Source: Lacipirellula parvula
GTDB lineage: Bacteria; Planctomycetota; Planctomycetia; Pirellulales; Lacipirellulaceae
Direction: 5' to 3'
DNA length: 64,000 nt
NCBI RefSeq assembly: GCF_009177095.1
Contig: NZ_AP021861.1
Location: 5,500,501 to 5,564,500 of the forward strand
Position 1 is the first letter of the stretch; each line of letters starts with the position of its first letter. Positions 4,487 to 19,678 of this stretch are shown here, piece after piece. The notes beneath the pieces are model-generated. The model saw only the letters and a program-made list of their open reading frames with translations, searched no databases and had not been told where the DNA came from. A program made the translations under genes and the position numbers.

Positions 4487-4874
4487 CGCACGAAAGAAGC
4501 GGACGGTTGAGACTCTGTGGCTAACATCGGGCCGAGGGCGCCCAGCCCTCCAGCCTACCTTTTTCCTAACCGGCAAAGTCGGCCCAGTTTGGATTTTCTC
4601 CGCGGAATACGGCTCGCCGCGAGTTCGCACGGCCAAGCGTTCTGAAGGGCAAATCGCCCAGGCTACGGGAATTGTAGCCACCACGGGCCGGCAGGGTTAG
4701 TCGGGCCATTTTGACCCCGGAAGCTTGGCAAGCTCTGCGGGCTGCGAAGGCAAGTCTCAATCTTCCTTCCGCACCGGTTCGATCAATCAAACCGTATCCG
4801 TAGACCTTGAGACGACTGCTAGCGGCGGCGCCCGTGGCCGCTTCCTTTTCCGCCGAGTCAGGAATGCTCTGTTG
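4487..4874. promoter_or_regulatory. Divergent intergenic region between metal-efflux and cytochrome genes
   Basis: 388 bases separate the minus-strand His-rich gene from the plus-strand cytochrome and should hold promoters for both directions. I cannot pick convincing -35/-10 pairs. Short imperfect palindromes occur around 4530-4560 (GAGGGCGCCCAGCCCTC) and 4645-4685. ORFs crossing here are not supported by codon pattern or homology. Confidence 0.4.
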
Positions 4875-7796
4875 ATGCGGCCCACCGAATCGCCAACTCG
4901 TCGTCTCACGCCGCTGATCGCCCGGACGGTTTGCCTGTTCGTGGCGTGCGCGGCGTGCGGCATGTTGCTCGCACCGCAGAGTTCGCACGAACAGCGTGGC
5001 GCCGTTGGGACGCTGACGGCGGCCGACCATCGCGGGCCGTACGACGCCGCGAATGGCGTGCAGGCAGTCTCCGTCAATCAACCGACGCATTACGCTTCGA
5101 AGCTCAAGGAAGAAGTGCAGCAGATGCTCGCCCAAGGGGGCTGCCCCGGGTGGATCGCGCTGGCGAGCGAACCCGACATCGAGACGGCCGGGCAGCGGCA
5201 GTCGGATCTGATGCAGGACAATGCGATCGTGCCCGCGGCGAACGGCGAACCAGTGCCGCCGGTGGTGAAGTACCCGCGGCCAGTTCGCGTTGGCCAACTA
5301 AACGGTTCGCCGGTGATGCGGCTCGTGCAGTTGCCGCCGGTTGATGATGAGCTCATTAGCGAGCAGTATGATTTGCTGCATTCTTCGCCGGAGTTTCAAA
5401 AGCAAGCGCCGGCGGTGGAGGCTCCGGCGGCGGTAGAAACTGCGCCTGCGCAGCAGCCGGCGGTTGTGACGCCTCCGTCTGTTGCGCCTCAGCCGGAGGC
5501 GGGGACGCCCCGGCTCGCGCCCTCGGCGTCGCCGCCTGCTGCGGAAGCGCCGGCTGTTCAGGCGCCTGCGGCAACGCCAGCGCCACCAGCCGCCGCGCCA
5601 GCGCCGCCGGCGACTACAAAATTGCGGCCGGATGATGATCTGCTCAACGGCGTCGACGATTTGCTTGCGCCGGAACATTCGCCGGCGCCGCGAGCCAATG
5701 TGGCTCCGCAACCGGCTGTACCTCAGCCGACTGTGCCGCGCGCAACGCCGAATCCTGCGCAGGACATGCTGAACGACCGCGGCGACTTGCTTGGTCCCGA
5801 AGCGACGCCGCGCGTGGCGCCTCCTGTCATTGCACCAGCGCCAGTTGCATCACCAGCCGTGCCGCCGGTCGCGCCGAACGGCATCGTGCCGGGAGTTGGA
5901 CAACCGCCGACGACCACGCTGCCGTTGGCTACGCCGCCTGTTGCTGCACCGCCGGCTGGTGCAGCGCCGTCGCCGTTTGTGCCGCCGCCGGCGGGGATGC
6001 CGCCGATGCATGGCGGGGCCCATGGCGCTGCTCCCGGACCGCATGGCGGTCCGGCTACTGGGCAACCGAGCGCAGCGGCGGCTGGGGATGCGGCGAACGC
6101 TGCGGCGGGAGCGAAGACAGCAGACAAACGGCCGCCGGGTGAACAGTCGCGCTGCACGTTTGCGGCGGAATCGCTCTACCCCTCAGCGAAAACCTGCCGC
6201 GTCTGTCACGAAAAAATCTACGAAGAGTGGAGCGTCTCGAGCCACGCCTACGCGGCCGTGTCGCCGATGTTCCACCGCTTCGAGCAGAAGATCAACGACC
6301 TGACGCAAGGGACGATCGGCTACTTCTGCTACCGCTGCCACTCGCCGGCGGGAACGACGCTCGGCATCTCGCGCGCGGCGCCGATGTACGATTTGCCGCC
6401 GGTCGCTCGCGAAGGCGTCACGTGCATTGCCTGCCATCGCATTCGCGAATGGTACGGCAAGACGAACGGCGAACGCCGCATCGAGCCGGGCGACGTCTAC
6501 GCGCCGATGTATGGCCCCTTTGGCGGCGACGGTGTTGCGCAGGTGATCGACGAAAAAGAAAAATTCAAAGTCAAAACGTCGCCCGACGAAACGGGACCAG
6601 GCCAGCCGATGCACGCGGCGGCGTTCTCGTTCCCGCAGCTGTCCCACGCCTCGTTCTGCACGTCGTGCCATCAGGTGGCGGTGTACCCCGGCATCAAGCT
6701 AGAAGTGGTGTGGGAGCAATACCGCGCCTCGCCGGCCTGCAAGAAGGGCATCTCGTGCCAAGACTGCCACATGGGCCGCATTCCCGGCGTGCCAAGCGGA
6801 TACGAGTATGGCGCTGCGGCAGAGATCAACAAGAAGACAGTCAACACCGACCGCAAACATGCAAACCATGTCTTCTACGGCCCCGGCTACTCAATCGCGC
6901 ACCCCGGCGTGTTCCCGTTCAATCCGAAGGCTGATCGCTGGTCGATGAAAGACTGGCTGCAGTTCGATTGGCGGGCGGGCTGGGGCACCGACGCCTTTGA
7001 GGACGCCGTGGAAGATGGCGCCATCCGCGTCACCTTCCCCGAAGCGTGGAAGGAATCGGACGATCGCTACGACGCCCGCGACATCATCGATGAGAACCTC
7101 AAGAAGAAGCAGGTGAAGAACCAGCTGCGGGCGCAGGTGATGGAGAATGGATCGCACGTTGATGGGCCGTTCTTCACGAAACCGCGCGTGCGCGGGCAAG
7201 ACCTTGAGTTCAACTACATCGTCACCAACACGAACGACGGGCACAACTTGCCGACCGCGTCGCTTGGCGCCCAGCCGCAGCTGTGGGCCAACGTGGCGCT
7301 GATCAACCCGCGCGGCCAGCGCGTCTGGGAGAGCGGCTACCTCGATCGCTTCGGCGACTTGGCCGACATCCATTCGGAAGACGTCCGCCACAAACGGATT
7401 CCGTACGATTGGCAGTTGTTCAACCTGCAGACGATGTTCCTCATCACCGGCGCTAAGGGGACTGATCGCGAGTTCTTCCTGCCGGTAAACATCGACATCG
7501 ATCCCCTGCCCTTTATCCGCCCTGCTGCGCAGCCGATCTCGGTGCTCAACCATCCGCCGTTCATTCGGATGGAAGCGCGATCGCTCGCGCCGCTCGGGTC
7601 TCGGACCGTGCCATACAAGATCCCGGGCGAACTGCTGTGCGAACCGGGGCGATACCGGCTGAGCTTCCGGATGCGGAATCGGACGGAACCGATGTACTTC
7701 ATGCGGTTCTGCGATTCAACGGCCGAGATGCAACGCGCGATGATGGAGGGGACGCTTGATTTTCATACGTCGAGCGTGGAGTTCGATGTGGAGTGA
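4875..7796 (+). CDS. Five-haem c-type cytochrome with long Pro/Ala-rich N-terminal linker
   Basis: A 973-residue exported redox protein. Start ATG at 4875 gives a basic N-terminus and one hydrophobic segment (TVCLFVACAACGMLLA, about 16-35), a signal or anchor; the ORF is open further upstream without support. Residues 150-420 are low-complexity Pro/Ala/Gln, a flexible spacer. The conserved part has five CxxCH haem sites at about residues 441 (CRVCH), 485 (CYRCH), 517 (CIACH), 595 (CTSCH) and 628 (CQDCH), and the start of the domain resembles cytochrome c554. The last 300 residues carry no haem motif and look beta-rich. It is followed by an outer-membrane barrel gene, so it may be cell-surface or periplasmic. 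A palindrome is translated near residue 210. The exact electron partner is unknown. Confidence 0.85.
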   Translation: MRPTESPTRRLTPLIARTVCLFVACAACGMLLAPQSSHEQRGAVGTLTAADHRGPYDAANGVQAVSVNQPTHYASKLKEEVQQMLAQGGCPGWIALASEPDIETAGQRQSDLMQDNAIVPAANGEPVPPVVKYPRPVRVGQLNGSPVMRLVQLPPVDDELISEQYDLLHSSPEFQKQAPAVEAPAAVETAPAQQPAVVTPPSVAPQPEAGTPRLAPSASPPAAEAPAVQAPAATPAPPAAAPAPPATTKLRPDDDLLNGVDDLLAPEHSPAPRANVAPQPAVPQPTVPRATPNPAQDMLNDRGDLLGPEATPRVAPPVIAPAPVASPAVPPVAPNGIVPGVGQPPTTTLPLATPPVAAPPAGAAPSPFVPPPAGMPPMHGGAHGAAPGPHGGPATGQPSAAAAGDAANAAAGAKTADKRPPGEQSRCTFAAESLYPSAKTCRVCHEKIYEEWSVSSHAYAAVSPMFHRFEQKINDLTQGTIGYFCYRCHSPAGTTLGISRAAPMYDLPPVAREGVTCIACHRIREWYGKTNGERRIEPGDVYAPMYGPFGGDGVAQVIDEKEKFKVKTSPDETGPGQPMHAAAFSFPQLSHASFCTSCHQVAVYPGIKLEVVWEQYRASPACKKGISCQDCHMGRIPGVPSGYEYGAAAEINKKTVNTDRKHANHVFYGPGYSIAHPGVFPFNPKADRWSMKDWLQFDWRAGWGTDAFEDAVEDGAIRVTFPEAWKESDDRYDARDIIDENLKKKQVKNQLRAQVMENGSHVDGPFFTKPRVRGQDLEFNYIVTNTNDGHNLPTASLGAQPQLWANVALINPRGQRVWESGYLDRFGDLADIHSEDVRHKRIPYDWQLFNLQTMFLITGAKGTDREFFLPVNIDIDPLPFIRPAAQPISVLNHPPFIRMEARSLAPLGSRTVPYKIPGELLCEPGRYRLSFRMRNRTEPMYFMRFCDSTAEMQRAMMEGTLDFHTSSVEFDVE

Positions 7797-8069: not shown

Positions 8070-10094
8070 ATGACTTTGCCGCAACGAATTGATCGAACGA
8101 TAACGACGCCGTGGCGCCGGTGCGCGCTCGCGGTTGCGGTGTCGCTGTGTGCAGTCGGTTTGGCCGCTGACGTCGAGCCCGTGCACGCGCAATCGGCGTT
8201 CGACGATTTGTTTGCGCCGCCGACTGCGGGGCCAGCGCTCGAGCTGTTGCCGCCGACTAACGACCAACCGATTGCTCTCTTTGCCGCGAATCCGAACCCG
8301 GGCGCCGCGAGCGCGTTCGGCCCGCCAATCCCTCCGGGTGCCACTGGCGTGTCGCCAGTGAGTAGTGCCGAGCGAGTTCCCACATCTGCACTGGCGACAC
8401 GCCAGTGGCACCCCACGGCAATTCCTAACACAAACGCAAACAGTGCGTCGAGTTTCGCACCGCCGCCGGTTTGCGCACCGACCTATGCAGCCTCGACCGG
8501 CGTGCAAGCCGTGTTCGGTCCGCCGTTGACGGGGACAATGCTCGCCCCGCCTCCCGCCGTGCCTGGATTCATGCGTTCGCTCGGTCGCTATGGACCAGTC
8601 CCGGCCTCGACGCCGGGCGTCGATTCCTCGCACTCGATCATCTGGGACCAGATGCCGACGCCCCCGCAGCTCAACGGCGCGGTGATGCAGGCGGAACCGC
8701 CGGTCCACGACTCGTGCAGCAACGATGCACCGTTCACGTCGATCGACTTCGCGCCTGATCCGAAGCTCGACTCGTACTGTTGGGACGGGCAAGCGGAACT
8801 CGGCGTCTACGGCGGCAAGCATCTCAACCTGACGCAGTATCCGTGGATCGAAGGGTTCACGCCGCTGTACGGCAACGGCGCGTGGCCGCCGTCGTTCACG
8901 TTCATGGGGCCGACGAATCTCGTGCGGCCGAAGCTGTATCTCTACGGCGACTTCCGCACTGCGGTGGCGAGCAACAACAACGTCGGCAACTCGCAAGGGA
9001 TTTGGGCCAATCGGCTCAACCTCGACCTTGATTTCCCGATCACGGCGACCGAGCGGTTCCACATGTTCTTCGGCCCGCTCGACCAGGGGCAGAACTTCAC
9101 CAGCGTCGTCGTCGACGAGAGCCGGATGGAAGTCGAAGACAATTTCGACGGCTGGGATCAGAACACCGATACGATGTATTTTGAGGGCGACCTCGGCTAC
9201 CTCATCGGCGGCGCTCGCGGCACCGATGCGCCGTTTGATATGCCGTTCGCGGCGGGTCTCATCCCAATGGTGCTGCAGAACGGCGTTTGGTTGGAGGACG
9301 CCTTCCTCGGCGCCGCGGCGACGATTCCGGCGAAGAACTCGCCGGGGCTCGATATCTCGAACTTCGACACGACGTTCTTCGCTGGCTTCAAAGAGCTGAC
9401 GACCGATGCGTTTAGCGTCGACGCGGACGATGCTCAGTTCGTCGGCGTGACGACCTTCATGGAACGTCGCGGCGGCTACTTCGAAGTTGGCGCAGCGTAC
9501 GTCGACGACCCCGCCGACCTGGGGCTCGACTACTTTAACCTCGGCGCTTCGTACACGCGGCGATACGCGAACCTGCTCTCGAACTCGATGCGGGTGATCG
9601 TCAACGCCGGCCAAGACGTGCCGAAGGATCAGCGGACGGCCGACGGCTACCTGCTGCTGATGGAAAACAGCTTCCTGACGCCGCTGCCGTATAACATCAT
9701 TCCGTACGCGAACTTCTTCGCGGGCTTTGATCGCCCGCAACCGCTCGGCCGGTTGCAGGGGCCTCTGAAAAACACCGGCATCAACTTTGAAAGCGACTTG
9801 CTCACCGGGTACCCGTTCCTCGACGACTCGGGCAACGACACCTACGGCGGCGCTTTCGGCGTCGACCTGCTCGGCGGGCAGTTCGATCGGCAGTTCATCG
9901 TCGAAACGGCCGTGCTGCAAGCGTTCGGCGACCCGGTTGGCCGAATCGCGCCGGGCGATCAGTACGCCCTAGGCGTTCGCTACCAGGTGCGGCTCGGCAA
10001 TGCGTGGATCTTACGCGCCGACGCGATGCACGGGTGGCTGGAGAATTCGAACGACATCGATGGGGCACGGCTCGAGCTGCGGCACAAGTTCTAG
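8070..10094 (+). CDS. Outer-membrane beta-barrel protein downstream of the multihaem cytochrome
   Basis: A 674-residue exported protein. Residues 1-41 form a signal peptide ending AQSAFDDLF-like sequence. Residues 45-170 are Pro/Ala-rich, and about residues 90-114 are encoded by an inserted palindrome pair. From about residue 215 onward the sequence has alternating aromatic and polar residues typical of barrel strands (LYLYGDFRTAVASNNNV, LNLDLDFPITATERFHMFF) and it ends in LELRHKF, with the terminal Phe common in outer-membrane barrels. The gene is co-oriented with the five-haem cytochrome 273 bases upstream. A porin-cytochrome arrangement is possible but not shown. No specific family name is assigned. 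Confidence 0.75.
   Translation: MTLPQRIDRTITTPWRRCALAVAVSLCAVGLAADVEPVHAQSAFDDLFAPPTAGPALELLPPTNDQPIALFAANPNPGAASAFGPPIPPGATGVSPVSSAERVPTSALATRQWHPTAIPNTNANSASSFAPPPVCAPTYAASTGVQAVFGPPLTGTMLAPPPAVPGFMRSLGRYGPVPASTPGVDSSHSIIWDQMPTPPQLNGAVMQAEPPVHDSCSNDAPFTSIDFAPDPKLDSYCWDGQAELGVYGGKHLNLTQYPWIEGFTPLYGNGAWPPSFTFMGPTNLVRPKLYLYGDFRTAVASNNNVGNSQGIWANRLNLDLDFPITATERFHMFFGPLDQGQNFTSVVVDESRMEVEDNFDGWDQNTDTMYFEGDLGYLIGGARGTDAPFDMPFAAGLIPMVLQNGVWLEDAFLGAAATIPAKNSPGLDISNFDTTFFAGFKELTTDAFSVDADDAQFVGVTTFMERRGGYFEVGAAYVDDPADLGLDYFNLGASYTRRYANLLSNSMRVIVNAGQDVPKDQRTADGYLLLMENSFLTPLPYNIIPYANFFAGFDRPQPLGRLQGPLKNTGINFESDLLTGYPFLDDSGNDTYGGAFGVDLLGGQFDRQFIVETAVLQAFGDPVGRIAPGDQYALGVRYQVRLGNAWILRADAMHGWLENSNDIDGARLELRHKF
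8338..8411. repeat. Palindrome family A pair inside a coding sequence (copy 2)
   Basis: Both arms of family A, 8338-8360 and 8389-8411, lie wholly within the barrel-protein gene. They are read in frame as GATGVSPVSS and ALATRQWHP. The arms match intergenic copies at 7853, 13097 and 16228, so this is an inserted repeat, not conserved protein sequence. Confidence 0.9.
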
Positions 10095-10257: not shown

Positions 10258-12249
10258 CTACTTGTGGTAGCGGTGGCATTGGGTACAGCTGTCGCCCGCG
10301 GCGGCGGGGGTGTGGCACGCGGCGCAGGCGGCTTTCGACATTGGTGCAAAGCCTGATGTGAAGTGGTGCGGATCGCGCTCGGCGTAGCTCGCCATGAAGT
10401 CGGCGCCGACGGCGAATTGGTGGCAGCTCGCGCAGTCGCCCGCTTTCGGCAATACGATATGCGGGGCATGGTTGAACCGCGTGAAGCTACGCGGCTCGCG
10501 CGTCGGATCGTGCAGCTCCCACTGAATCGCCAGCCGCCCATCGACGCGGTCGACGCTGTGGCAACTGCCGCAGAGGCCGGCGGCCGTTGGCTTCATTGCT
10601 TGCGCGAGAAACGGCTCGAAGAGTTTGGCCTGCTTTCCACTCGCCCCTTCGGCAAGCACGTCGAGCCACGCCCGCAGCCAGGGGTCGGCATGGCCGGTCG
10701 GTTGATAGCGAAGCGTGAGCGTCGTCGGATCGTGCGTCCAGTCGTCTGGCGTCGGCGGTTGCGCTGGACGAGAGCCAGCGCTTGCTTCAGGCGTCGGCGA
10801 CAGTTTGCCGAGCAACGACTGATCGCGGAACTCGCCAATCCGCTCCGCCGACAGTCGGCCGGCGAGTGCGGAGAGTTCTTCCGCCGTCAGTTCGCGACCG
10901 AGCACTGTCTTCAATCGCGCGGCGAGCGCCGGTTGGCCCTGATCGGCGAGTTCGTTGACAATCGCGCGAATCGACTCGGCCGTTTGTGCGGCGGCCCGGA
11001 GTTGCGTCGGGTCGTCGATGTCGACGTCGTACAAATCGAAGTCCGGGCCTAACACTCCAAGTGCGGCGGCCCCGGCAGCGTCGGCTTGCATTAGCACCTT
11101 CGCCACCGTCGGCGGGGCGCCTTCAAAATCGCCGGTGGCAGCCGCCGGCCAGGAGCCGAGATCGATGTTATGATCGGCGAGCGTGTCGGCGTCGACCGTC
11201 GGCAGCGAGAGGAACGTCACGCCATCGGCGAAGCTCGCGGCGATCGACTTGTCGTGGCAGTTCGCGCAGCTTTCGGCGAAGCTCGCGGTAAGTTGCCGCT
11301 GTCCGCTCGCGTCGGTCTTGTGGCAGGCAGCGCAGGAGAACTCCTGCTTCTCTTCGGGGTAATGCTTGAGTTGGTGCGCGGCGTGATCGAACGCGATGCC
11401 CGTTCGCCGCAGGTGGGGCCACTGACCGAACTCGGGATGGCCGTGGGCAAAGCTGTCGAACTCCGCACGATGGCACGACTGGCAGGCGACGCTGCTCACC
11501 GCGGCGAGGTCGTGCATCCGGCCCTGATGTTCGCGATGGCATGCCGAGCAGGCGATGGGTTCGTTCGGGTTACGCGGCCGCTGGTCCCACGGCACGTCGG
11601 CCGGGGCGGCGTTGCCTTGGCGTTCTTGTCGCAAGTCGGTCATCCGCTCAAGCGAAGCGAGCTGCACGCCGTGCGACGCGAGGGCAAACTCTTCGCCGAT
11701 CTTGTCGCGATGGCATTCGAGGCAGAGCATCGATTGCGTCGGCGAAAGTTCGCCGCCGCCGAACGAGTGCTCCCACCACGAACTGATCGACGCCATGCCG
11801 GCCGCGTGGCATTGCGCGCAGCGGAGCGTCGCGTTCTCGCCTTCGAGCAATTGCGCGTGATGCATCGACAGCGGACCGGGGGCGAGAAACTCGTTTCGCC
11901 ACGAACCGCTGAGCGCCATGCAGAGGGCGCCGAGCGCGGCGATGGCGATCGCCGCGACGAAGCGGCCGCGCCGCTGACGTAGCGATAACACTGGCGTGCA
12001 ACGATAGGTGATGCAGCAGGCGCCGTCGGGCGTCGGGCCTTCCTCGCATGGTCCGCCGCGAAGTGCTGAGCGATTGCAGTGCCAACGATCGCCGTCGCGC
12101 ACCGGATGGCACGCCGCCACGGCCGGGCAGGCGCCGTGCGCCGTTGGCCCCGCGGGGCACGCAGTGCCATCGCCCGCCATGCCGCAAATCCAATGCTGCT
12201 GCGGGCGTTCGTACTGGTCTGTCGTCGCGGGGTTGCGCGGCTCTCTCAC
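10258..12249 (-). CDS. Membrane-anchored ten-haem c-type cytochrome
   Basis: A 663-residue protein with ten CxxCH sites, in two groups: six at about residues 144, 176, 234, 256, 306 and 328, and four at 560, 606, 642 and 655. Between them lies a haem-free, mainly helical region. The start is GTG at 12249-12247, overlapping the TGA of the upstream gene (GTGA) with GGAGG seven bases upstream; the longer frame to 12357 is not needed. Residues 22-84 are Cys-rich without haem motifs (CGMAGDGTACPAG, GACC), then one transmembrane helix at about 97-114. So a Cys-rich domain would be on the cytoplasmic side and the haems outside. Translational coupling to the b-type membrane gene implies one complex. 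Confidence 0.87.
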   Translation of the reverse strand: MREPRNPATTDQYERPQQHWICGMAGDGTACPAGPTAHGACPAVAACHPVRDGDRWHCNRSALRGGPCEEGPTPDGACCITYRCTPVLSLRQRRGRFVAAIAIAALGALCMALSGSWRNEFLAPGPLSMHHAQLLEGENATLRCAQCHAAGMASISSWWEHSFGGGELSPTQSMLCLECHRDKIGEEFALASHGVQLASLERMTDLRQERQGNAAPADVPWDQRPRNPNEPIACSACHREHQGRMHDLAAVSSVACQSCHRAEFDSFAHGHPEFGQWPHLRRTGIAFDHAAHQLKHYPEEKQEFSCAACHKTDASGQRQLTASFAESCANCHDKSIAASFADGVTFLSLPTVDADTLADHNIDLGSWPAAATGDFEGAPPTVAKVLMQADAAGAAALGVLGPDFDLYDVDIDDPTQLRAAAQTAESIRAIVNELADQGQPALAARLKTVLGRELTAEELSALAGRLSAERIGEFRDQSLLGKLSPTPEASAGSRPAQPPTPDDWTHDPTTLTLRYQPTGHADPWLRAWLDVLAEGASGKQAKLFEPFLAQAMKPTAAGLCGSCHSVDRVDGRLAIQWELHDPTREPRSFTRFNHAPHIVLPKAGDCASCHQFAVGADFMASYAERDPHHFTSGFAPMSKAACAACHTPAAAGDSCTQCHRYHK

Positions 12250-13070
12250 GGCAGGCCTCCGTAAAAGAGGTGCGCCGTCCAAGCATGCAATCCCGCGACC
12301 AGCAGCAACGGATAAGTGAGCGCAATGTGCACGAACAGCCACGCCCGCAGCCGCCATTGCAGCGACTCAGAGTAGTCGAGATCGTCGCGTTGGCGGAGGA
12401 GCGCGAACAGTTGCTCGGCCGTTTTGCGTTCTTCATCGGAGAGGTAGCGCGTCGCGTCGGTCAGCTCGGCGAGCAGCGACTTGCGCAGCTCGCTGCTCGG
12501 CCAGATGCGGAACCGCCAACCGCGGCGAGTGGAGAAATAATCATGCAGCCGCGCGTTGTAGAAATCGCCGAGCGTCGTGGCGCCGGCGGTACGCACAGCG
12601 GCGAGGATGGCGTTTTGAGCGCGCTCTTGAATGCGATGTCGCTCGGCGCCGATCCGTTCGTAAATCACTTCCTGGCCTAGCCGGCTCAAGCGTCGCGGCA
12701 GCGAGCGGGTCCAGTAGAGGCCGATCACGCCGCTGAGGAACGTCGCGATGTAGAGCAGCGAAAGGATAGTTTCGAGCACGCCGTTCGGCCACCGCCAGGG
12801 GGCATGGATCGCGTATAGCCCCGCCGAGCCGAGGCCGATGTAGATGTGAGCCTGCAGCCACACGGCCGACGTACCGAGCGGCGCGGCGGGAAGCTTTTTG
12901 CGAACTTGAAACGCGGCGAGCGCGATGATCGCTGTGAGGAGCATCCAACCGGTGAAGTAGCTCGAGGATTCGAGCCGGTTCTCGAGTCGCTCGGCCCACA
13001 GCCATACGCCGGCGAGCGCCGTCAGCGTGACGGCGGCGCCAATCCATCGGCGGCGAGCGAAGGTGGTCAT
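12246..13070 (-). CDS. Membrane protein with two HX13H pairs, probable bis-haem b-type electron carrier
   Basis: A 275-residue integral membrane protein with about five helices. Start ATG at 13070 (MTTFARRRWIG) removes a leader that would be translated from a palindromic repeat. His75 and His89 lie in one helix (HIYIGLGSAGLYAIH) and His248 and His262 in the last helix (HIALTYPLLLVAGLH). Each pair is separated by 13 residues, the spacing used by ferric-reductase and cytochrome b proteins to hold two stacked haems. A soluble loop lies between. Its stop overlaps the GTG start of the ten-haem cytochrome, so it is likely the transmembrane electron conduit to that protein. Haem binding is inferred from spacing only. 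Confidence 0.72.
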   Translation of the reverse strand: MTTFARRRWIGAAVTLTALAGVWLWAERLENRLESSSYFTGWMLLTAIIALAAFQVRKKLPAAPLGTSAVWLQAHIYIGLGSAGLYAIHAPWRWPNGVLETILSLLYIATFLSGVIGLYWTRSLPRRLSRLGQEVIYERIGAERHRIQERAQNAILAAVRTAGATTLGDFYNARLHDYFSTRRGWRFRIWPSSELRKSLLAELTDATRYLSDEERKTAEQLFALLRQRDDLDYSESLQWRLRAWLFVHIALTYPLLLVAGLHAWTAHLFYGGLP

Positions 13071-13096
13071 GCGACTCGTTGAGGAGTTTCTGAAGT

Positions 13097-13244
13097 GTGC
13101 CACTGGCGTGTCGCCAGTGCGGAAGCGGGTGCTAAGCATCCACAAACTGTAGACAGCAAGTAGCCTGATCGATCAGGCTACTTGCGAGTCAAACGGTTGC
13201 CATGCCCTTGCGGCGCCTCTGCACTGGCGACACGCCAGTGGCAC
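13097..13244. repeat. Composite element family A (copy 3, 148 bases)
   Basis: Family A arms at 13097-13119 and 13222-13244 enclose an internal palindrome, GTAGCCTGATCGATCAGGCT, at about 13159-13178. About 70 bases of the right half match, in reverse orientation, the left half of the element at 16228-16373, so the two are copies of one defined element. Confidence 0.88.
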
Positions 13245-13327
13245 CCATCTCACAGCGGATCATAGCCCCGCTAGCGTAGCGATTTCACCGCCGACGGCGA
13301 AGGCGAATGCGGGCTCGAATCGCCCCG

Positions 13328-15073
13328 TTAGCGCGCCAAGAAGGCGGAGAGTTCGCCTAAGTTACCCAAGTCCAAACGAACGAGCGCATCTTGCGGGCAA
13401 GCGCGTTGGCAGGCCGGCCCGCCCGGCAGGCCGGTGCAGAGATCGCACTTCGTCGCCTTTGCGATCGGCTGCTGCGTCGCGGCGTCGATGAGCGTCGCGC
13501 CGCTCTGGTCGCGGACCTCGACCATCTGAATGTTGTCGTATGGGCAACTGTTCGCGCAGGTACTGCAGCCGATGCAGGTGCGATCGTTGATTTGCACGAC
13601 GCCGCTCACGCCGTCGCGGCCGATAGCGCCGGTGGGGCAGCCGATCATGCAGACGGGGTCGACGCAGTGCATGCAAGCTTGGGCAATCATCAACGGCCCA
13701 TGCCGATGGCCCTGTCGCACGAACCGTGGGTTGTTGTCGTGAGTCGCCGCACAGGCGCGGACGCAATCGTCGCAACGGGTGCAGCGATTGAGGTCGATCG
13801 CCATCGCTTCCTGGCCGTTGAGGAGGCGATGGTCGACGAGAAACTCAAGCAGGCTTTGATCGATGCCTTCGGCAGTGGCGTCGGGCTTTGCTTCGGTAGG
13901 CGAGAACGTCGCTTGTGCCTGCACTGCGCTCGCAAGCGATTCGGGCGAGACGAACGGGAAGACCGCCTGCTCCAGCACCTGCTGCGGAATGCGAAGGACG
14001 TCGACATAGCCGACCGCTCGCAGTGAGTCGTTCCACTTGGCGGCCACGCCGTTGCCCGCCGCCTCGACCGCTTCCGCCAGGCCGAACGTTTGCCCGCGTC
14101 CTAAGTAGGCGGCCGTGCGATGGCCGCTGCCGTAACGTCGGCTCAACCGAGCGAAGCCGGAGCGAATCAAAATCAGTCCGTCGGCCGGCGTCTCCTCTTC
14201 AGAGATGAGCGGTTCGTCGACGATCGCATCGCCAGGTCGGCGCTTCACGGCCGTCGCGAACGAGTCGTTCCAATCGAAGGCGCCATGATTCTCGAACAGC
14301 GTCGCATCGGCGACGAGCGCCAGTTGCTCGGCCGGCAGGTCGCGGAGCAGCGGCGTTTCGCGTAGGTGCACCAGCAAACTGTTCTGGCGATACAAACGTT
14401 CGACATGCAGCCGCAGCGCATCGGTTCGGCGCATGAGATCGCGGAGGCCTTGCCAGCGGATTTCGAGCAGCGTCGTTTCGTTCTCGGCGAAAACTGTGGC
14501 CGTGCGCGGGCTGCGGGTGAGGGCCGCGAGTTCGCCGAACATTTCGCCGGGCGAGAGGACGACGGTATCGGTCGCTTCGAGGACGCGCGGGACGTCCTGC
14601 AGGAAGATGTGCGGGTGGTCGGGATCGCCGCGCTCTGCGGTGGTGATGGCGGGATTACCCCCCGCACGAAGCGGGGGGCTCGCCTGCGGATCATTGGCGT
14701 AGTTGCGGACTTCGGCGAGCTTGGGGCGCGTCAGCGATTGCACCATCGCGGCGAGCCAGCCGATGCGTTTCGGTTCTTTGCGGCCGAGGACTTCGGGCGA
14801 GAGCCCCGCCAGCACGACTCGCGCGCGCCCGGTGAGAATCAGAAACGCACTATTGCCGTAGTCGCCCTCGCGGACGATGATGTCGCCCGCCGCGTAATGC
14901 TGCAGCCGCGTGTCGTTCCGCAAGATCTCTCGCAGCGGCAGCGAGGCCGGAAAGCTCGCCGCGTCGATGCCGGCGAACGGCTCGATCGACAGCAGCCGAT
15001 CGATCGCGTCGTCGCGCATCGATTCGCCGAACGGCACGTCCCAACGCTGCGGTCTGCTGACGGCGACTTCCAT
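13328..15073 (-). CDS. Cyclic-nucleotide-binding protein fused to four 4Fe-4S sites
   Basis: A 581-residue cytoplasmic protein joining two cyclic-nucleotide-binding (CNB) domains to a ferredoxin-like electron-transfer domain. In CNB1 the phosphate-binding cassette reads GEMFGELAALTRSPRTATV (about 176-194), retaining the Gly-Glu-Leu and the Arg expected to bind a cyclic nucleotide. CNB2 (about 240-370) has a degenerate cassette. Residues 431-559 hold 16 Cys in four groups: CTRCDDCVRAC, CMHCVDPVCMIGC, CIGCSTCANSC and CDLCTGLPGGPACQRAC, the layout of NrfC/FdhB-type subunits. The start at 15073 follows the upstream stop by seven bases; an upstream extension is unsupported. A palindrome at 14658-14680 is translated within CNB1. 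Neighbours are cytochromes, an FAD reductase and a nucleotide cyclase. Confidence 0.88.
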   Translation of the reverse strand: MEVAVSRPQRWDVPFGESMRDDAIDRLLSIEPFAGIDAASFPASLPLREILRNDTRLQHYAAGDIIVREGDYGNSAFLILTGRARVVLAGLSPEVLGRKEPKRIGWLAAMVQSLTRPKLAEVRNYANDPQASPPLRAGGNPAITTAERGDPDHPHIFLQDVPRVLEATDTVVLSPGEMFGELAALTRSPRTATVFAENETTLLEIRWQGLRDLMRRTDALRLHVERLYRQNSLLVHLRETPLLRDLPAEQLALVADATLFENHGAFDWNDSFATAVKRRPGDAIVDEPLISEEETPADGLILIRSGFARLSRRYGSGHRTAAYLGRGQTFGLAEAVEAAGNGVAAKWNDSLRAVGYVDVLRIPQQVLEQAVFPFVSPESLASAVQAQATFSPTEAKPDATAEGIDQSLLEFLVDHRLLNGQEAMAIDLNRCTRCDDCVRACAATHDNNPRFVRQGHRHGPLMIAQACMHCVDPVCMIGCPTGAIGRDGVSGVVQINDRTCIGCSTCANSCPYDNIQMVEVRDQSGATLIDAATQQPIAKATKCDLCTGLPGGPACQRACPQDALVRLDLGNLGELSAFLAR

Positions 15074-15080
15074 GGCGAGC

Positions 15081-16127
15081 CTACTTATATTGAGCCGGCG
15101 TCGGCAACAGCGGATCGATCGCGGAGAGCTGAGCGCCGTCGGCCGTGGCGGCGAACTCATATGCCTGCTTACCGATCTCGTTCGCCGCGGCGATGATCGC
15201 CTCGCGGTTGTGGAGTTTCAGCCGCGCGCCGAGGGCCGCGTCGAGCGCCGCCGTGACGTGCGGATTCTGGACCGATTGCGAAATTTCGTACAGGCGTCTT
15301 TTCTGCCGCGCGGCTCGTTGGGCAGCGGCGATGCCGAACGTTGATTTCTGGCTCGCTGCGGCGGTCGCTCGCAAGCTGGCTTCGAGGTCGGCTAATACGC
15401 CGACGATGTACATGACGCGCAGCCGCTCGGGGCTCGACGGGGCGTTCACCGTGCCGCCGCTGCGGAGGAAGTTGTGCCGCACCTTGCCTAGCGACCAGGC
15501 GACGAGTTCGAAGTCGGGCGTCCCCGCCGCGTGACCGCCGACGTTCACCAGCCGTTCGTTCGGCGAGGTGTGGCAAGCGAGGCACTGACGGGCTACGAGG
15601 TACAAGTTCGCCGGATTGTTCATCCCGGCGGCGATGCTCTTTTCGATCCGCTCGGCGCGATGCTCGGACGATTCCATCGCACGAGTGACGGTCGGCCCGC
15701 CGTAGTCGGCGTGCAGCTCGATCCAATCGCGACCGGCGCCGTGGCATGACTCGCACGAGACGCCGGCAATCACCCGCTCGCGGCCATGCTCTTCTTGGAC
15801 GGTGAAATGGCACTTGGTGCATTCGTCGTTGCGTTTCACGCTGCGGAGGCCAAGCCGATCAGCAATCGCCTTCGCTTCGGGCATGCGGTGGAGCGTTTCA
15901 AACGTCGCGAAGTGGGGCGTCTCGCGCCACGAGAGCATTTCGTTCTCATGGCACTTGGTGCATGAGTCGGGGCCAAGCACCTTGGCAGGATCATACTGGA
16001 CGAACCCCGCCGCGGCGGCGGAGAGAGGTTGATCGGCGGCCGGAGCCGGAGTAGGCGCAGCGGCACGGGCTTCCTGGGCGAACCACAGGAGCGCGAGCAC
16101 TGCGAGCGTCGGTGCCGAACGATTCAT
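15081..16127 (-). CDS. Four-haem cytochrome c554-like protein
   Basis: A 348-residue exported protein starting MNRSAPTLAVLALLWFAQEA, a signal peptide cleaved near ARA-AAP. The CxxCH sites are at about residues 56 (CTKCH), 103 (CTKCH), 125 (CESCH) and 182 (CLACH). The spacing and the GVSCESCHGAG motif are like the cytochrome c554 family (tetrahaem). The final 160 residues are helical and haem-free. The frame is open back to 16289 but that part reads through a palindromic repeat. It ends seven bases before the CNB/Fe-S gene, so both are probably in one transcript. Substrate or partner is unknown; c554 family membership alone does not imply ammonia oxidation. Confidence 0.85.
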   Translation of the reverse strand: MNRSAPTLAVLALLWFAQEARAAAPTPAPAADQPLSAAAAGFVQYDPAKVLGPDSCTKCHENEMLSWRETPHFATFETLHRMPEAKAIADRLGLRSVKRNDECTKCHFTVQEEHGRERVIAGVSCESCHGAGRDWIELHADYGGPTVTRAMESSEHRAERIEKSIAAGMNNPANLYLVARQCLACHTSPNERLVNVGGHAAGTPDFELVAWSLGKVRHNFLRSGGTVNAPSSPERLRVMYIVGVLADLEASLRATAAASQKSTFGIAAAQRAARQKRRLYEISQSVQNPHVTAALDAALGARLKLHNREAIIAAANEIGKQAYEFAATADGAQLSAIDPLLPTPAQYK

Positions 16128-16227
16128 TGATCCTAAGCGTGCGGTTGGATGGAATTCCAAGCTCCGCAAGTTTAGGTCACAAATCGCCGCAATTTTGGGC
16201 GGGAAATCAGGCCGGTAGGCGAATCGG

Positions 16228-16373
16228 GTGCCACTGGCGTGTCGCCAGTGGGAGGCGCCGCGAGGGCACGGCAACCGTTTGACTCGCATGTAGCCTGATT
16301 AATCAGGCTGCCTGCGACCTGCAATCGGTGGCTGCCCTGTACTCACTTCCCACTGGCGACACGCCAGTGGCAC
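16228..16373. repeat. Composite element family A (copy 4, 146 bases)
   Basis: Arms at 16228-16250 and 16351-16373 enclose GTAGCCTGATTAATCAGGCT. The element is in the opposite orientation to the copy at 13097-13244. The two copies therefore bracket the CNB/Fe-S and c554 genes as long inverted repeats. Confidence 0.88.
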
Positions 16374-16411
16374 ACTGCTCGCACTTCAACGCTTACCGAA
16401 GTGGTGTGCGA

Positions 16412-16440
16412 CCCCCCGGGCGGAGCCCGGGGCTAGGGGA
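16412..16440. repeat. GC palindrome CCCCCCGGGCGGAGCCCGGGG type
   Basis: A perfect short hairpin followed by CTAGGGG, three bases from the end of the reductase gene. A close relative lies inside the yceH coding sequence at 54528-54558. On the minus strand it could act as a terminator or simply be a mobile palindrome. Confidence 0.75.
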
Positions 16441-16442
16441 AC

Positions 16443-17705
16443 TCACGCTTCGACGACCACGTCGCCAACGGGTCGCGCGATGCAGGCTAGGCATTCGCCG
16501 TCGACGAGTTCCACGCCAGGACGCTTGGCGTGGGCGACGCGGCCGGCGGCGATCATCACGCGGCATTGGCCGCAGTTGCCGGCGCGGCAGCCCCATTCGA
16601 GTCGCACGCCCCCCTGCTCCGCCAGGTCAAGCAGCGACTCTTCATTCCCCTGCCAGCGGAGCGATTTTTCCGAGCGAACGAAGTCGACGTTGCACGGCTC
16701 GCTCACGGCGGCGTCGCTCAAGCCGCGGATGCTCGCGGGGCCGAAGGCTTCGTAGTTGATATGCTCGACCGGGACGCCCCACTCGAGGAGCGCCGGGACG
16801 AGCGACTCCATCATCCCCGGCGGACCGCAGAGGTAGTAGCGGAAGTTATTTGACGGCAGCACTTGTCGCAAGCGGTCGACGTTCACGTGCCCCCAGTGCG
16901 AGTAGTCGACATCGGGCCGATCGCTGTCGTAAGGCCGCGAGTAGGCTACGTCGAGCGTCAGGTTGCTCGTCGCGGCGGCGAGTTCTTCGAAGCTCGCTTT
17001 GAAGGGATGTTCGCCACTGTTGCGGAAGCCGGTGAAGGCGTAAATATGCCGGCGATCGCGACGATGAACGAGCGCCGCCGCCATGCTAAGGATCGGCGTC
17101 ACGCCGATGCCGCCGCCGATAAGCACCACCGGCAGGTCGTCGGTTGGATCGAGAAAGAACGAGCCTTGCGGCGCTTCGATCGCAAGCGTGGAGCCGACGT
17201 TCATGTCGCGATGGAAATAGTGGCTGCCGCTCAAACCGCGGCGGCCGTCGCCCCCCTCCTCTTCACCTCGCGGCACGCACTTCACCGTGATGCGGTAGTA
17301 GTCGTCACGCGGACGATCGGAGAGGGAGTAGCACCGTACGAGCGGCCGCATCTCATCGGCCGTCGGCAAATGGAAGGTGAGGTACTGGCCTGGCTCGAAG
17401 CGCGGCAGCGGGCGGCCATCTTCGGGCACTAGGTAAAACGAGCGGCAGCCTGCCGCTTCGTCGGCTACGGCCGAAACGCGGAAGTTCCGCACGCCAATCC
17501 ACGCCTTTAGCCGCGGCTGGCTGGCACGCGCCCAATGCAGGGCGGCGTCGAGTTGATTGGCAAACGAGGCTCGTTCGCGTTCGGTCTTTTCGACCCGCTC
17601 TTGCTCGCGGCGCAGCAGCCCGCGGACGCCGCGAACGGCGCGAACTCCCGCGGTCCCCAGGAGGGCGGCTCCGGAGATTAGGCCCAGCGAAGCAGGTTCG
17701 AGCAT
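16443..17705 (-). CDS. NAD(P)H:acceptor reductase with FAD domain and C-terminal 2Fe-2S ferredoxin
   Basis: A 420-residue flavoprotein of the ferredoxin-NADP reductase superfamily. It begins with a short hydrophobic segment (LGLISGAALLGTAGVRAV), so it may be membrane-attached. FAD binding is shown by RCYSLSD (about 125-131) and NAD(P) binding by GGGIGVTPI and YLCGPPGMM. The C-terminal ferredoxin has CRAGNCGQC (Cys373, 378, 381) and GECLAC (405/408), the plant-type 2Fe-2S pattern, in the order seen in phthalate-dioxygenase-reductase-like enzymes. It is the first gene of the minus-strand redox set and divergent from the cyclase at 17879. It is the obvious entry point for electrons from NAD(P)H; the acceptor is inferred, not known. 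Confidence 0.9.
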   Translation of the reverse strand: MLEPASLGLISGAALLGTAGVRAVRGVRGLLRREQERVEKTERERASFANQLDAALHWARASQPRLKAWIGVRNFRVSAVADEAAGCRSFYLVPEDGRPLPRFEPGQYLTFHLPTADEMRPLVRCYSLSDRPRDDYYRITVKCVPRGEEEGGDGRRGLSGSHYFHRDMNVGSTLAIEAPQGSFFLDPTDDLPVVLIGGGIGVTPILSMAAALVHRRDRRHIYAFTGFRNSGEHPFKASFEELAAATSNLTLDVAYSRPYDSDRPDVDYSHWGHVNVDRLRQVLPSNNFRYYLCGPPGMMESLVPALLEWGVPVEHINYEAFGPASIRGLSDAAVSEPCNVDFVRSEKSLRWQGNEESLLDLAEQGGVRLEWGCRAGNCGQCRVMIAAGRVAHAKRPGVELVDGECLACIARPVGDVVVEA

Positions 17706-17878
17706 GTACTGCGCATCGGGACAATCGCCGCGAAACTCATGCTGGCGGCCGCGAGGTTCCGGTTGTGCGGGTTGGGAAAGTTTTTCGGCAAACGGTTCCG
17801 ACGTATGCCGGAGGAGCGACCTACTCTTGCGCAGATCGCCGCCCTCCCGCCAGTGCCCTCCCCTTGAGTACTCCCGCC

Positions 17879-19678
17879 ATGTGGCAAGTCGCCGTCTTCA
17901 ACCGACGACAGCACGAACAGTTTCGCGTCGTCGGCTCCGAAATCACGCTCGCGCAGCAAGGCCTCGACGAACGCTGGGCGCCGAGCAACATTGCAGCTGG
18001 CTCGGGCTACGAACAAACGCCGGCCGGCGATCGGATTACGATCCGCCTCCGTCCCAGCGGCGAAGCGACGGTGATCGACTGCCGCGGCATCGACGACAAC
18101 GTCCTGCTGGCCGACGGCGGCGCCCTGGCCTGCCATGTGCCGATGGAATTGTCGCTGCCGGCGACCTTCCAACTCGGCGAAACTTGGTTTGAAATCAAAC
18201 TCCGCACCGTGCGGCCGGAAACGCTCGCCCTCGAAGCGCTCCATGCCACCGATGCCGAGCGTCCCGCCCACGCTGGTAAGCAAGGCCCCGACTCGGCGAC
18301 GGTGTCGAAGTGGCTCGCCGCGGTGAGCGACCTGCACCGCACGGCCGCGAGCAGCGACGAGTTCTTCACGCGAGCCGCTGAAATCGCCGTCCGCAGCACG
18401 GGCCTCGACGCGGCGATGATCTTGCTGCGCGAAGGTTCGACCTGGCAGATCGCGGGCAGTTCGCTTGCCGATCCTCGCTATGGGTTCTCGTTCGATGATG
18501 CGGCGCTCAACTTGATGGTCGCTCGCCCCGACGTGTGGCGGCAGCCGGCGTCGAGCGTGCGGTCGACGACGCTCGTGCCGGGGCTGCCCGATCCGCAACC
18601 GCAAGATTCACTGGTGCTCGCGCCGGTGCGGGGCGAGTATGGCGAAGTGATTGCCGCGGTGTACGGCGTGCGGCATGGCCGCGGCGACAACCGTCGCGTC
18701 GGCGTGCGGACGTTGGAAGCTCGCGTCATCGAAGTCCTCGCCGACGGCGTGGCAGCGGGGCTCGCACGGCGGCAGCAAGAAGTCGACGCGGCACGTCGGC
18801 AGGTGCTGTTGGAACAAGCCTTCTCGCCGGAGGTCGCTCAGCACCTGCTGCGGCAGCCGAACGCGCTCGCCAGCCAAACGCGCGAGACGACGATGCTGCT
18901 CGCCGACTTGCGCGGGTTTACCAAGCTGGCCGAAATGCTCACCCCGACCGAGAGTTGCGATCTGCTCTCCGCGGTGATGGAAGCGCTCACCGACGCGATC
19001 ACCGAGCAGGGCGGCATGGTGATCGACTACTACGGCGACGGCGTCTCGGCGATGTGGAACGCGCCATTCGATCAGCCCGATCACGCCGACCGGGCGTGCT
19101 TGGCGGCGCTCGAGATGCTCGAGTCGATCGCCCAGGTGAGCGAAGCCTGGCGGCAGTTGTTGCCGTTCCCGCTGGAGCTTGGCATCGGCATTCATACCGG
19201 CCTCGTGCAGGTCGGCAACGCCGGCACGCGGCAACGGATGAAATACGGCCCGCGCGGGAGGGCGATGAACCTCGCGAGCCGCGTGCAGACGGCGGCCAAA
19301 CATCTCGACGTACCGCTGTTGGTGACTGACGCCGTGCGGCGCCGTGCGTCGAGCCGGCTCACCGCGCTGAAGGTGTGCACGGCGCGACTGCCGGGGATTG
19401 AGGACCCGCAAGAGTTGTTTACATTGTTCCCCGCGGCTGATGCGGAGCGGTTGCAGGGCGACCTTGATCGGTACGCCATTGCGTTAGCCGCTTTTGAGGA
19501 AGGCGATCTTGATCTCGCGGAGCGAGAGCTTGAATCATTGCTATCCGACGGTCCCTCGACGCCGGCGGCGTTTCTGGCTCAACAAACGGCGGCGCTGCGG
19601 CGCGGCGGGTTGGGCCGGCGGGCGGATGATTTGTTCGCGAGCGGGAACGATGCGGTGATTGAGATTCTTTCGAAGTGA
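17879..19678 (+). CDS. Class III adenylate/guanylate cyclase with N-terminal FHA-like and GAF-like domains
   Basis: A 599-residue signalling enzyme predicted to make a cyclic nucleotide. Start ATG at 17879 (MWQVAVFNRRQHEQF) gives an FHA-like beta domain (about 1-110); the longer frame to 17765 overlaps the divergent promoter. A GAF-like sensor spans about 130-310. The cyclase domain has the first metal-binding Asp at about 343 (LLADLRGFTKLAE), the second at about 387 (DYYGDGVSAMW), then GIGIHTGLVQVGNAG and GRAMNLASR. A helical C-terminal region of about 70 residues follows. No membrane segment is seen. It sits 173 bases from the divergent reductase gene, and a CNB-domain Fe-S protein is two genes further, which suggests a local cyclic-nucleotide circuit. 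Substrate (ATP or GTP) is not assigned. Confidence 0.88.
   Translation: MWQVAVFNRRQHEQFRVVGSEITLAQQGLDERWAPSNIAAGSGYEQTPAGDRITIRLRPSGEATVIDCRGIDDNVLLADGGALACHVPMELSLPATFQLGETWFEIKLRTVRPETLALEALHATDAERPAHAGKQGPDSATVSKWLAAVSDLHRTAASSDEFFTRAAEIAVRSTGLDAAMILLREGSTWQIAGSSLADPRYGFSFDDAALNLMVARPDVWRQPASSVRSTTLVPGLPDPQPQDSLVLAPVRGEYGEVIAAVYGVRHGRGDNRRVGVRTLEARVIEVLADGVAAGLARRQQEVDAARRQVLLEQAFSPEVAQHLLRQPNALASQTRETTMLLADLRGFTKLAEMLTPTESCDLLSAVMEALTDAITEQGGMVIDYYGDGVSAMWNAPFDQPDHADRACLAALEMLESIAQVSEAWRQLLPFPLELGIGIHTGLVQVGNAGTRQRMKYGPRGRAMNLASRVQTAAKHLDVPLLVTDAVRRRASSRLTALKVCTARLPGIEDPQELFTLFPAADAERLQGDLDRYAIALAAFEEGDLDLAERELESLLSDGPSTPAAFLAQQTAALRRGGLGRRADDLFASGNDAVIEILSK

Follow-up and report, generated by a model that had tools for sequence, protein, structure and literature searches.

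A candidate cyclic-nucleotide-sensing electron-transfer module that may span the cell envelope in Lacipirellula parvula and other bacteria

Lacipirellula parvula (contig NZ_AP021861.1) carries, within a stretch of 64,000 nucleotides that is referred to here as the window and supplies all coordinates given below, a module of seven genes centred on a protein (CNB-FeS) in which two cyclic-nucleotide-binding (CNB) domains are fused to four [4Fe-4S] sites. Our analyses have established the gene content of this module, the co-occurrence of its members, the folds of two of them, their haem and cluster ligands and the residues of the presumed ligand-binding site. A composite explanation of these results, which we regard as evenly poised between right and wrong, is that the seven genes encode a trans-envelope pathway leading from NAD(P)H to multihaem cytochromes, with CNB-FeS as a cyclic-nucleotide-sensing Fe-S subunit.

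From these data we infer an order of the electron carriers, an outward direction of flow, the binding of a cyclic nucleotide and a gating of the path as follows. NAD(P)H would reduce an FAD/[2Fe-2S] reductase on the cytosolic face, from which electrons would pass to the four [4Fe-4S] clusters of CNB-FeS, then to the two b-haems of a membrane protein and on to a periplasmic decahaem cytochrome; a tetrahaem c554-type cytochrome would act as a shuttle, and a pentahaem cytochrome with an outer-membrane porin would hand the electrons to a periplasmic or extracellular acceptor. Entry would be from NAD(P)H, no quinone site being evident in the sequences. A cyclic mononucleotide at the first CNB domain (CNB1) would alter docking or electron flow, while the second (CNB2) may be a structural partner that lacks the ligand-binding Arg, as is possible for one domain of tandem-CNB regulators; the signal would be supplied by a dedicated divergent cyclase in part of the lineage and by other class III cyclases elsewhere. 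Stated in full, the idea is a second-messenger-gated conduit, in which the tandem CNB head (joined in one planctomycete family by an FHA domain, perhaps reading phosphorylation) switches a flow of electrons that leaves NAD(P)H, avoids the quinone pool and crosses both membranes to the pentahaem cytochrome and the porin. Such a conduit would occur in about ten phyla, and part of the window's lineage would add a cyclase of its own whose base specificity is unusual; we hold this fuller statement tentatively and consider it somewhat likelier to be wrong than right.

Composition and spread of the module

The preliminary description of this locus had proposed five electron-transfer genes on one strand, with a class III nucleotide cyclase diverging from them at a distance of 173 bp, and both features were borne out. 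The five genes, all on the minus strand, encode the NAD(P)H reductase (NADox; 16443..17705), the tetrahaem c554-type cytochrome (15081..16289), CNB-FeS (13328..15073; the open reading frame (ORF) opens at 15160 and its likely start is at 15073), the membrane protein (12246..13070; ORF opening with TTG at 13145, probable ATG at 13070) and the decahaem cytochrome (10258..12357; start uncertain). The cyclase lies on the plus strand (17879..19678; PF00211, 7.2e-16), its ORF opening with GTG at 17765 and its probable start being the ATG at 17879, from which the divergent intergenic region (17706..17878) is counted to the reductase start. A search of positions 17500-18100 gave no sigma-70-like promoter match. 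Two further members flank the five-gene core on the plus strand, viz. a pentahaem cytochrome (4725..7796) and an outer-membrane beta-barrel (8070..10094, with the barrel itself at 8721-10091).

The reductase contains FAD_binding_6, NAD_binding_1 and Fer2 domains with the motifs RxYS, GGxGxTP and CX4CX2C...C, a hydrophobic stretch seen by eye at its N terminus and a plant-type [2Fe-2S] domain at its C terminus; the nearest relatives of its FAD/NAD module are the reductases of flavohaemoglobins. The c554-type protein (PF13435, Cytochrome_C554, 1.2e-16) has four CXXCH motifs, as do 78/83 homologues (haem counts here and below include the five duplicate loci L035, L036, L039, L040 and L041), and it probably begins with a signal-peptide-like start near 16127. 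For the membrane protein there is no matching Pfam family, nor did its profile find a sequence relative in the PDB at E 0.1. The protein contains two pairs of His (H100/H114 and H273/H287), with a spacing of 14 residues in both, and each His is kept in 85-86 of the 86 sequences; two His pairs of such spacing are the classical pattern of a protein with two b-haems. In the decahaem cytochrome, ten CXXCH motifs (in 75/89 homologues) follow one hydrophobic stretch, which is itself preceded by eight N-terminal Cys, each present in 71-75 of 83 sequences and conserved over phyla. This eight-Cys segment has no Pfam match; by its topology it should face the cytosol, where it perhaps forms a metal or cluster site.

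The remaining core member, CNB-FeS, has 16 Cys in its C-terminal part (four motifs at 13397..13783, minus strand), of which 14 are invariant and 2 are kept in at least 90% of 87 sequences, and this is the number that four [4Fe-4S] clusters need. Its Fe-S part belongs with the Fer4 families and has HycB3 as its nearest solved relative (profile match 6.1e-23); it also matches the NCBIfam model HydN (2.7e-19), with 69 bits against a cut-off of 260. The protein is probably cytosolic, as no signal peptide is seen in its sequence. In its Fe-S part it resembles polyferredoxin subunits of the HydN/DmsB/FdhB type, from which it differs in the fusion to CNB domains and in having no molybdopterin, hydrogenase or formate dehydrogenase partner.

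Relatives of CNB-FeS are encoded at 459 places according to a genome scan, from which the best 80 were kept, so that the sample favours close homologues; similarity to a single protein decided which loci were included, contigs of metagenome-assembled genomes (MAGs) may mislead, and the taxon names of MAGs are those of their submitters. The locus set used here, to which loci of the related genomes were added (L035-L129, minus the five duplicates and the distant L049), consists of 89 loci. In the 46 loci that extend 8 kb or more to either side of the CNB-FeS gene, the reductase was found in 44, the c554-type cytochrome in 42, the membrane protein in 45 and the decahaem cytochrome in 45, all four being present, and the five-gene core therefore complete, in 41; the pentahaem-barrel pair was found in 19 of the same 46, the barrel alone in 1 and a cyclase of 150 bits or more in 18. 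The tree of 87 CNB-FeS sequences covers ten labelled phyla (viz. Planctomycetota, Verrucomicrobiota, Pseudomonadota, Nitrospinota, Omnitrophota, Latescibacterota, Zixibacteria, Poribacteria, Armatimonadota and Nitrospirota) as well as SAR324; several of these phyla are represented by a single MAG, and in each of these groups membrane and multihaem partners lie beside CNB-FeS. The recurrence of the gene set in many genomes and phyla indicates more than chance.

Within the window's own phylum CNB-FeS is widespread but patchy, with a match at 1e-80 in 37/392 genomes of an even sample that includes the genome of the window. A set of 39 related genomes, again with the window's own, contains 15 that encode full CNB-FeS (referred to below as carriers) and 24 that do not; among named isolates, the module is carried by Lacipirellula limnantheis, Bythopirellula polymerisocia and Adhaeretor mobilis. 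A query match of some kind was found in 11 of the 24 non-carriers, in 10 of these to the Fe-S part only. The genome of the window also encodes a second polyferredoxin (L034; 6291090-6291512 of that genome, minus strand; 594-aa open frame) that is related to the Fe-S part only. In L139 (6877-9753, minus strand) a CNB-FeS relative is fused to NuoG-like 2Fe-2S/4Fe-4S domains, and the other module genes are unmatched in its 13.6-kb stretch. A variant of the module occurs in three loci of Verrucomicrobiota (L120, L122 and L126), where the c554-like gene is divergent and lies on the opposite strand and the multihaem protein has a lower score; the genomes of the latter two gave no match to the pentahaem cytochrome.

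The cyclic-nucleotide-binding head and the cyclase

The CNB part of CNB-FeS matches PF00027 (6.3e-27). In the AlphaFold2 (AF2) model of the protein (predicted local distance difference test, pLDDT, 84.8) it adopts the tandem CNB fold of the cGMP-dependent protein kinase (PKG) and the regulatory subunit of the cAMP-dependent protein kinase (PKA-R), and the fold matches listed for the model all come from this part. These proteins, which share a cassette of the cAMP/cGMP type with CNB-FeS, are also the top PDB sequence matches of the CNB part; CNB-FeS differs from them in that its output is an electron carrier with four [4Fe-4S] clusters and in that the cassette Arg is present in CNB1 only, its absence from CNB2 being seen both in the alignment and by eye. 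The phosphate-binding cassette of CNB1 (GEMFGELAALTRSPRTATV; 14492..14548, minus strand) retains the ribose-binding Glu in 87/87 sequences, the phosphate-binding Arg in 84/87 and a Thr or Ser as the next residue in 81/87, the Arg being replaced by His in L046 and L048 and by Gln in L121. By family, fold and cassette residues CNB1 is a cyclic-nucleotide-binding domain and would be expected to bind such a ligand, and the conservation of its Glu and Arg over ten labelled phyla is unlike that of a relic. The preliminary description was therefore right that both residues are kept on a ferredoxin-type protein, whereas such a combination is less rare than it stated, given the 459 places that encode relatives (the CNB part was checked in some of these, and the 80 kept match nearly the whole query).

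Three CNB-FeS homologues (L132:2352-5354, plus strand; L136:5807-9940, minus strand; L137:1-2820, plus strand) contain an FHA domain between CNB1 and CNB2, and two other long or distant homologues have at the same place an insert with no Pfam match; the scan covered seven of the ten long or distant homologues. The L132 gene has the barrel, the c554-type cytochrome, the membrane protein and a decahaem protein as neighbours. The addition of a signalling domain to the head of an Fe-S relay is expected for a control point.

A further observation relates CNB1 to the cyclase content of the genomes. Of the 15 carriers, all but G010 and G022 have a strong class III cyclase somewhere in the genome, and these are the two in which His replaces the CNB1 Arg; their best matches score 27 and 23.5 bits, respectively, against at least 53 bits in the other 13. 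This is the pattern expected if the site had lost its ligand.

The locus cyclases have the residues of class III enzymes: positions 381 and 425, which we take to be the metal-binding Asp, and position 506, presumably the transition-state Arg, are each kept in 29/29 rows, and position 502, presumably the transition-state Asn, in 26/29. Adenylate cyclases select adenine by a Lys/Asp pair. At position 421, which we take to be their base-selecting Lys site, 27/29 rows have Asp, and Lys is found only in the unrelated L071 and L128; the Asp site of the pair holds a variable residue, which is Arg in the window. The window cyclase accordingly lacks the pair that marks adenylate cyclases proper, and with Asp at the Lys position the base specificity and product of the enzyme are uncertain. 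Its N terminus, which had been suspected to be of the FHA/GAF kind, gave no Pfam match.

An orthologous cyclase is not peculiar to this genome, as it occurs in 8/15 carriers and 0/24 non-carriers (Fisher p = 1e-4, kinship ignored; two of our three Fisher tables were drawn up after the data had been seen), at a cut-off of E below 1e-95 that was chosen after the scores were seen. It adjoins the core in seven of these carriers and is found apart from it, on another contig, in G023, whose assembly is broken. Beyond the orthologue, a class III cyclase of some kind is present in 41/42 carrier genomes that were selected because their CNB-FeS stretch has no orthologous divergent cyclase (10 of them Planctomycetota); the class is common in these groups in any case. 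The stretches themselves hold such a cyclase in 5/42, with 1.7 expected from the counts over whole genomes (p = 0.018): one with a 7TMR-DISM domain (SAR324, L071), one with CHASE2 (Omnitrophica, L128), one that is cut (L119) and two weak hits (L108 and L116). In L119 and L128 no class III cyclase was found in the genome besides that of the locus, but over the 30 genomes with at most 8 cyclases the probability of two or more is 0.067.

Several results weigh against a gated head served by the neighbouring cyclase, and they are gathered here. An orthologous cyclase is missing from 7/15 carriers of the family, and 37/61 loci with at least 6.5 kb upstream have no cyclase at 150 bits or more (a count in which the weak or cut hits L108, L116 and L119 are absent, while the 42-genome count includes them), so that adjacency of a cyclase is rejected as a universal trait. 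Where the orthologue is absent, adjacency is rejected as a strong signal and is no more than marginal, two of the five cases in the 42 stretches being weak hits. The best score among non-carriers is 1.1e-79 (G032), the copy in G011 has a stop inside the match, and the cyclase label needs 13 changes on the CNB-FeS tree when contig ends are counted as absence. The three FHA-bearing homologues all come from one planctomycete family (f37) and probably record one event; G010 and G022 belong to one genus, so that the loss of Arg is also one event; and in the Nitrospinota locus L121 the Arg is replaced by Gln although the genome has 13 cyclases.

The interpretation given in the preliminary description is thus partly upheld: the genes form a conserved electron-transfer set, CNB1 keeps its residues and a cyclic nucleotide may modulate the pathway, but the local cyclase is not a general partner and would at most be the source of the signal in part of the lineage. 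These results also bear on a rival explanation in which the module is real but its CNB head has a role in assembly, stability or recruitment to the membrane, or is just a relic, while the cyclase acts on other targets. The loss of Arg from CNB2, the many loci with no cyclase nearby and one more protein of the same genome that matches PF00027 strongly (480-aa open frame) and could be the target of the cyclase all favour it. The near-invariance of the CNB1 Glu and Arg, the loss of that Arg in the one genus where strong cyclases are absent and the FHA domain inserted into the head in one family count against it, and we regard a non-gating head as rather unlikely.

Weaker cyclase-like proteins should also be mentioned. 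The window encodes at 42302-45181 (minus strand) a protein of 959 aa whose N terminus holds a class III cyclase domain, weakly matched and probably degenerate, and which also has a Ser/Thr kinase domain and a Cache-like region. In seven of the 15 carriers (G000, G003, G009, G010, G016, G021 and G022) an open frame, about 900-975 aa long and 12-30 kb from CNB-FeS, gives a weak cyclase match.

The pentahaem cytochrome, the barrel and the direction of electron flow

The pentahaem cytochrome has a Pro-rich N terminus, its haem motifs at residues 491-682 and a conserved C-terminal domain, and five CXXCH motifs are present in 34/37 homologues. Its profile matches 5ze8, named cytochrome c552 of T. 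tepidum (4.2e-15), and by its five haems and this relation it belongs with the PHC/ExtKL pentahaem family; the ExtKL model NF040886 itself matched only 27 residues (5e-06). The DmsE-family model matched the c554-type and pentahaem cytochromes weakly, far below its cut-off, and the decahaem cytochrome was not among the matches listed. The barrel protein has no Pfam match, as is also true of three homologues, and a PDB search with its profile gave no relative at E 0.1; its predicted structure has a porin fold that resembles the substrate-specific OprD/OccK porins, with about 18 strands. An outer-membrane barrel is thus encoded adjacent to a multihaem cytochrome in the window, as in porin-cytochrome systems in the broad sense.

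In the 39 related genomes the full pentahaem cytochrome was found in 15/15 carriers and 1/24 non-carriers (cut-off 1e-60, at which the non-carrier G037 also gives a partial match; Fisher p = 6e-10, kinship ignored), and the barrel in the same 15/15 carriers and the same non-carrier, G031 (cut-off 1e-20, with weak matches in G028 and G037). The pair lies downstream of the core in convergent orientation, upstream in the same direction, upstream and divergent, or downstream in the same direction, and it may be distant: about 10 kb away in G011, about 28 kb in G017, about 190 kb in G015 and on another contig in G023. For 22 carrier genomes in which the pair is absent from the fetched stretch (the genome of L094 was left out of this search), 17 have a full or nearly full pentahaem cytochrome elsewhere, which in one case consists of two contig-end pieces. 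The presence of the pentahaem cytochrome even where it is distant from the core ties it to the core independently of gene order.

Three points weigh against the proposed exit. The pentahaem cytochrome has no match in 5 of those 22 genomes (G475, G054, G074, G077 and G079), and G031 has both the cytochrome and the barrel (contigs C45 and C48) with no CNB-FeS core, so that the pair is able to stand without it. The barrel of MtrB has 26 strands; an OprD-like barrel of about 18 would be narrower, and a cytochrome embedded in the barrel therefore stays putative.

The likeness to OprD/OccK porins also favours a different explanation, in which the module serves solely to reduce some soluble compound, with the pentahaem cytochrome as the catalytic subunit and the barrel as its substrate channel in place of an electron conduit. 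The weak matches of the pentahaem profile to MccA and to a multihaem selenoprotein (E 0.004-0.009) are consistent with this view. However, the best relative of the pentahaem cytochrome is the c552 protein, which has been likened to the ExtKL-family pentahaem proteins of the Geobacter cluster for extracellular electron transfer (EET) and to a nanowire cytochrome (PMC11976967), and a chain of decahaem and tetrahaem proteins probably exceeds the usual need of such a reductase. A soluble-compound reductase is, in our judgement, a rather unlikely explanation.

The outward path proposed here could also run in reverse, since its parts are reversible in principle: the pentahaem cytochrome would then oxidise a low-potential donor of the periplasm or cell exterior, and NAD(P)+ would be reduced in the cytosol by electron uptake. 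The carriers include a MAG of Mariprofundus (L129), a genus of iron oxidisers. Against inward flow stand the nearest relatives of the reductase, which are the NAD(P)H-oxidising reductases of flavohaemoglobins, and the presence of the module in Lacipirellula, Opitutaceae and Bythopirellula, which are heterotrophs; we consider this direction improbable.

Comparison with known systems and neighbouring genes

In the prevailing view, electron transfer across the envelope begins at the quinone pool and is regulated at the level of transcription. In the Mtr/Mto, Geobacter Ext and Oma/Omb, and PCC3 systems, as is proposed for the module described here, electrons enter at the inner membrane and the parts include periplasmic multihaem cytochromes and an outer-membrane barrel. 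Entry in porin-cytochrome conduits is by a quinol dehydrogenase, whereas here it would be from NAD(P)H by way of Fe-S clusters and a bis-haem-b protein; the CNB head and the OprD-like barrel are further differences. The PCC3 system has a periplasmic cytochrome of 21-27 haems (PMC10734462), and the present module has pentahaem and decahaem proteins. Freshwater Verrucomicrobia, including Opitutus, also have a putative cluster of porin and multihaem genes that has been proposed to transfer electrons to humics; it is characterised by eight conserved haem sites and a porin with at least 20 transmembrane motifs, unlike the module described here (PMC5615132). The gene sets differ so far as described there, and an identity with PCC3 or with the verrucomicrobial system is rejected: by gene content the module appears to be neither Mtr, PCC3 nor the published verrucomicrobial porin-multihaem cluster.

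Oxidoreductases of the NOX/FRE type likewise combine a cytosolic NAD(P)H-FAD module with two transmembrane b-haems, an outside acceptor and a signal-controlled part. The present module differs in its separate subunits, its additional [2Fe-2S] and [4Fe-4S] clusters and its multihaem c-type cytochromes, and the regulator would be a CNB domain instead of calcium or small GTPases. By analogy, it may work like a split NOX/ferric-reductase system that is wired to a porin-cytochrome exit.

A Pycsar system consists of a pyrimidine cyclase and a CNB effector bearing a TIR or transmembrane domain. That the cyclase and CNB-FeS are a defence pair like Pycsar, in which the effector would be an Fe-S protein, is very improbable, and an identity with Pycsar is rejected: the PADLOC PycC models match the cyclase (4.6e-22), which lacks the adenine-selecting Lys, and the PycTIR and TIR-effector models match the CNB region (8.4e-11), but the PycC models match L071 and L128, two class III cyclases unrelated to it, with scores that are similar or better, so that these matches are generic, and the CNB protein, whose CNB domains are accompanied by Fe-S domains only, shows neither a TIR nor a membrane domain and is encoded among conserved genes for electron transfer.

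No description of the module was found in an open-access library, including searches that joined cyclic nucleotides with multihaem, EET and planctomycete topics, and the term "cyclic nucleotide" is absent from the main text of PMC5615132 and from PMC6295460; the module is apparently undescribed. If the proposed gating is correct, a CNB site inside the electron path would permit fast switching with no new protein, and the occurrence of the module in sequenced, named isolates makes this idea directly testable. For planctomycetes, Verrucomicrobia and marine bacteria, the module also provides their multihaem cytochromes with a set of partners and a hypothesis.

The remaining ORFs of the loci, which were clustered for additional partners, are mostly apparent shadow ORFs opposite known genes and ordinary chromosomal neighbours. 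Beside the cyclase, the window encodes two large proteins (19755-22673, minus strand, and 23741-26968, plus strand) that contain repeated units resembling ELWKSDGTxAGTxxVKDI.

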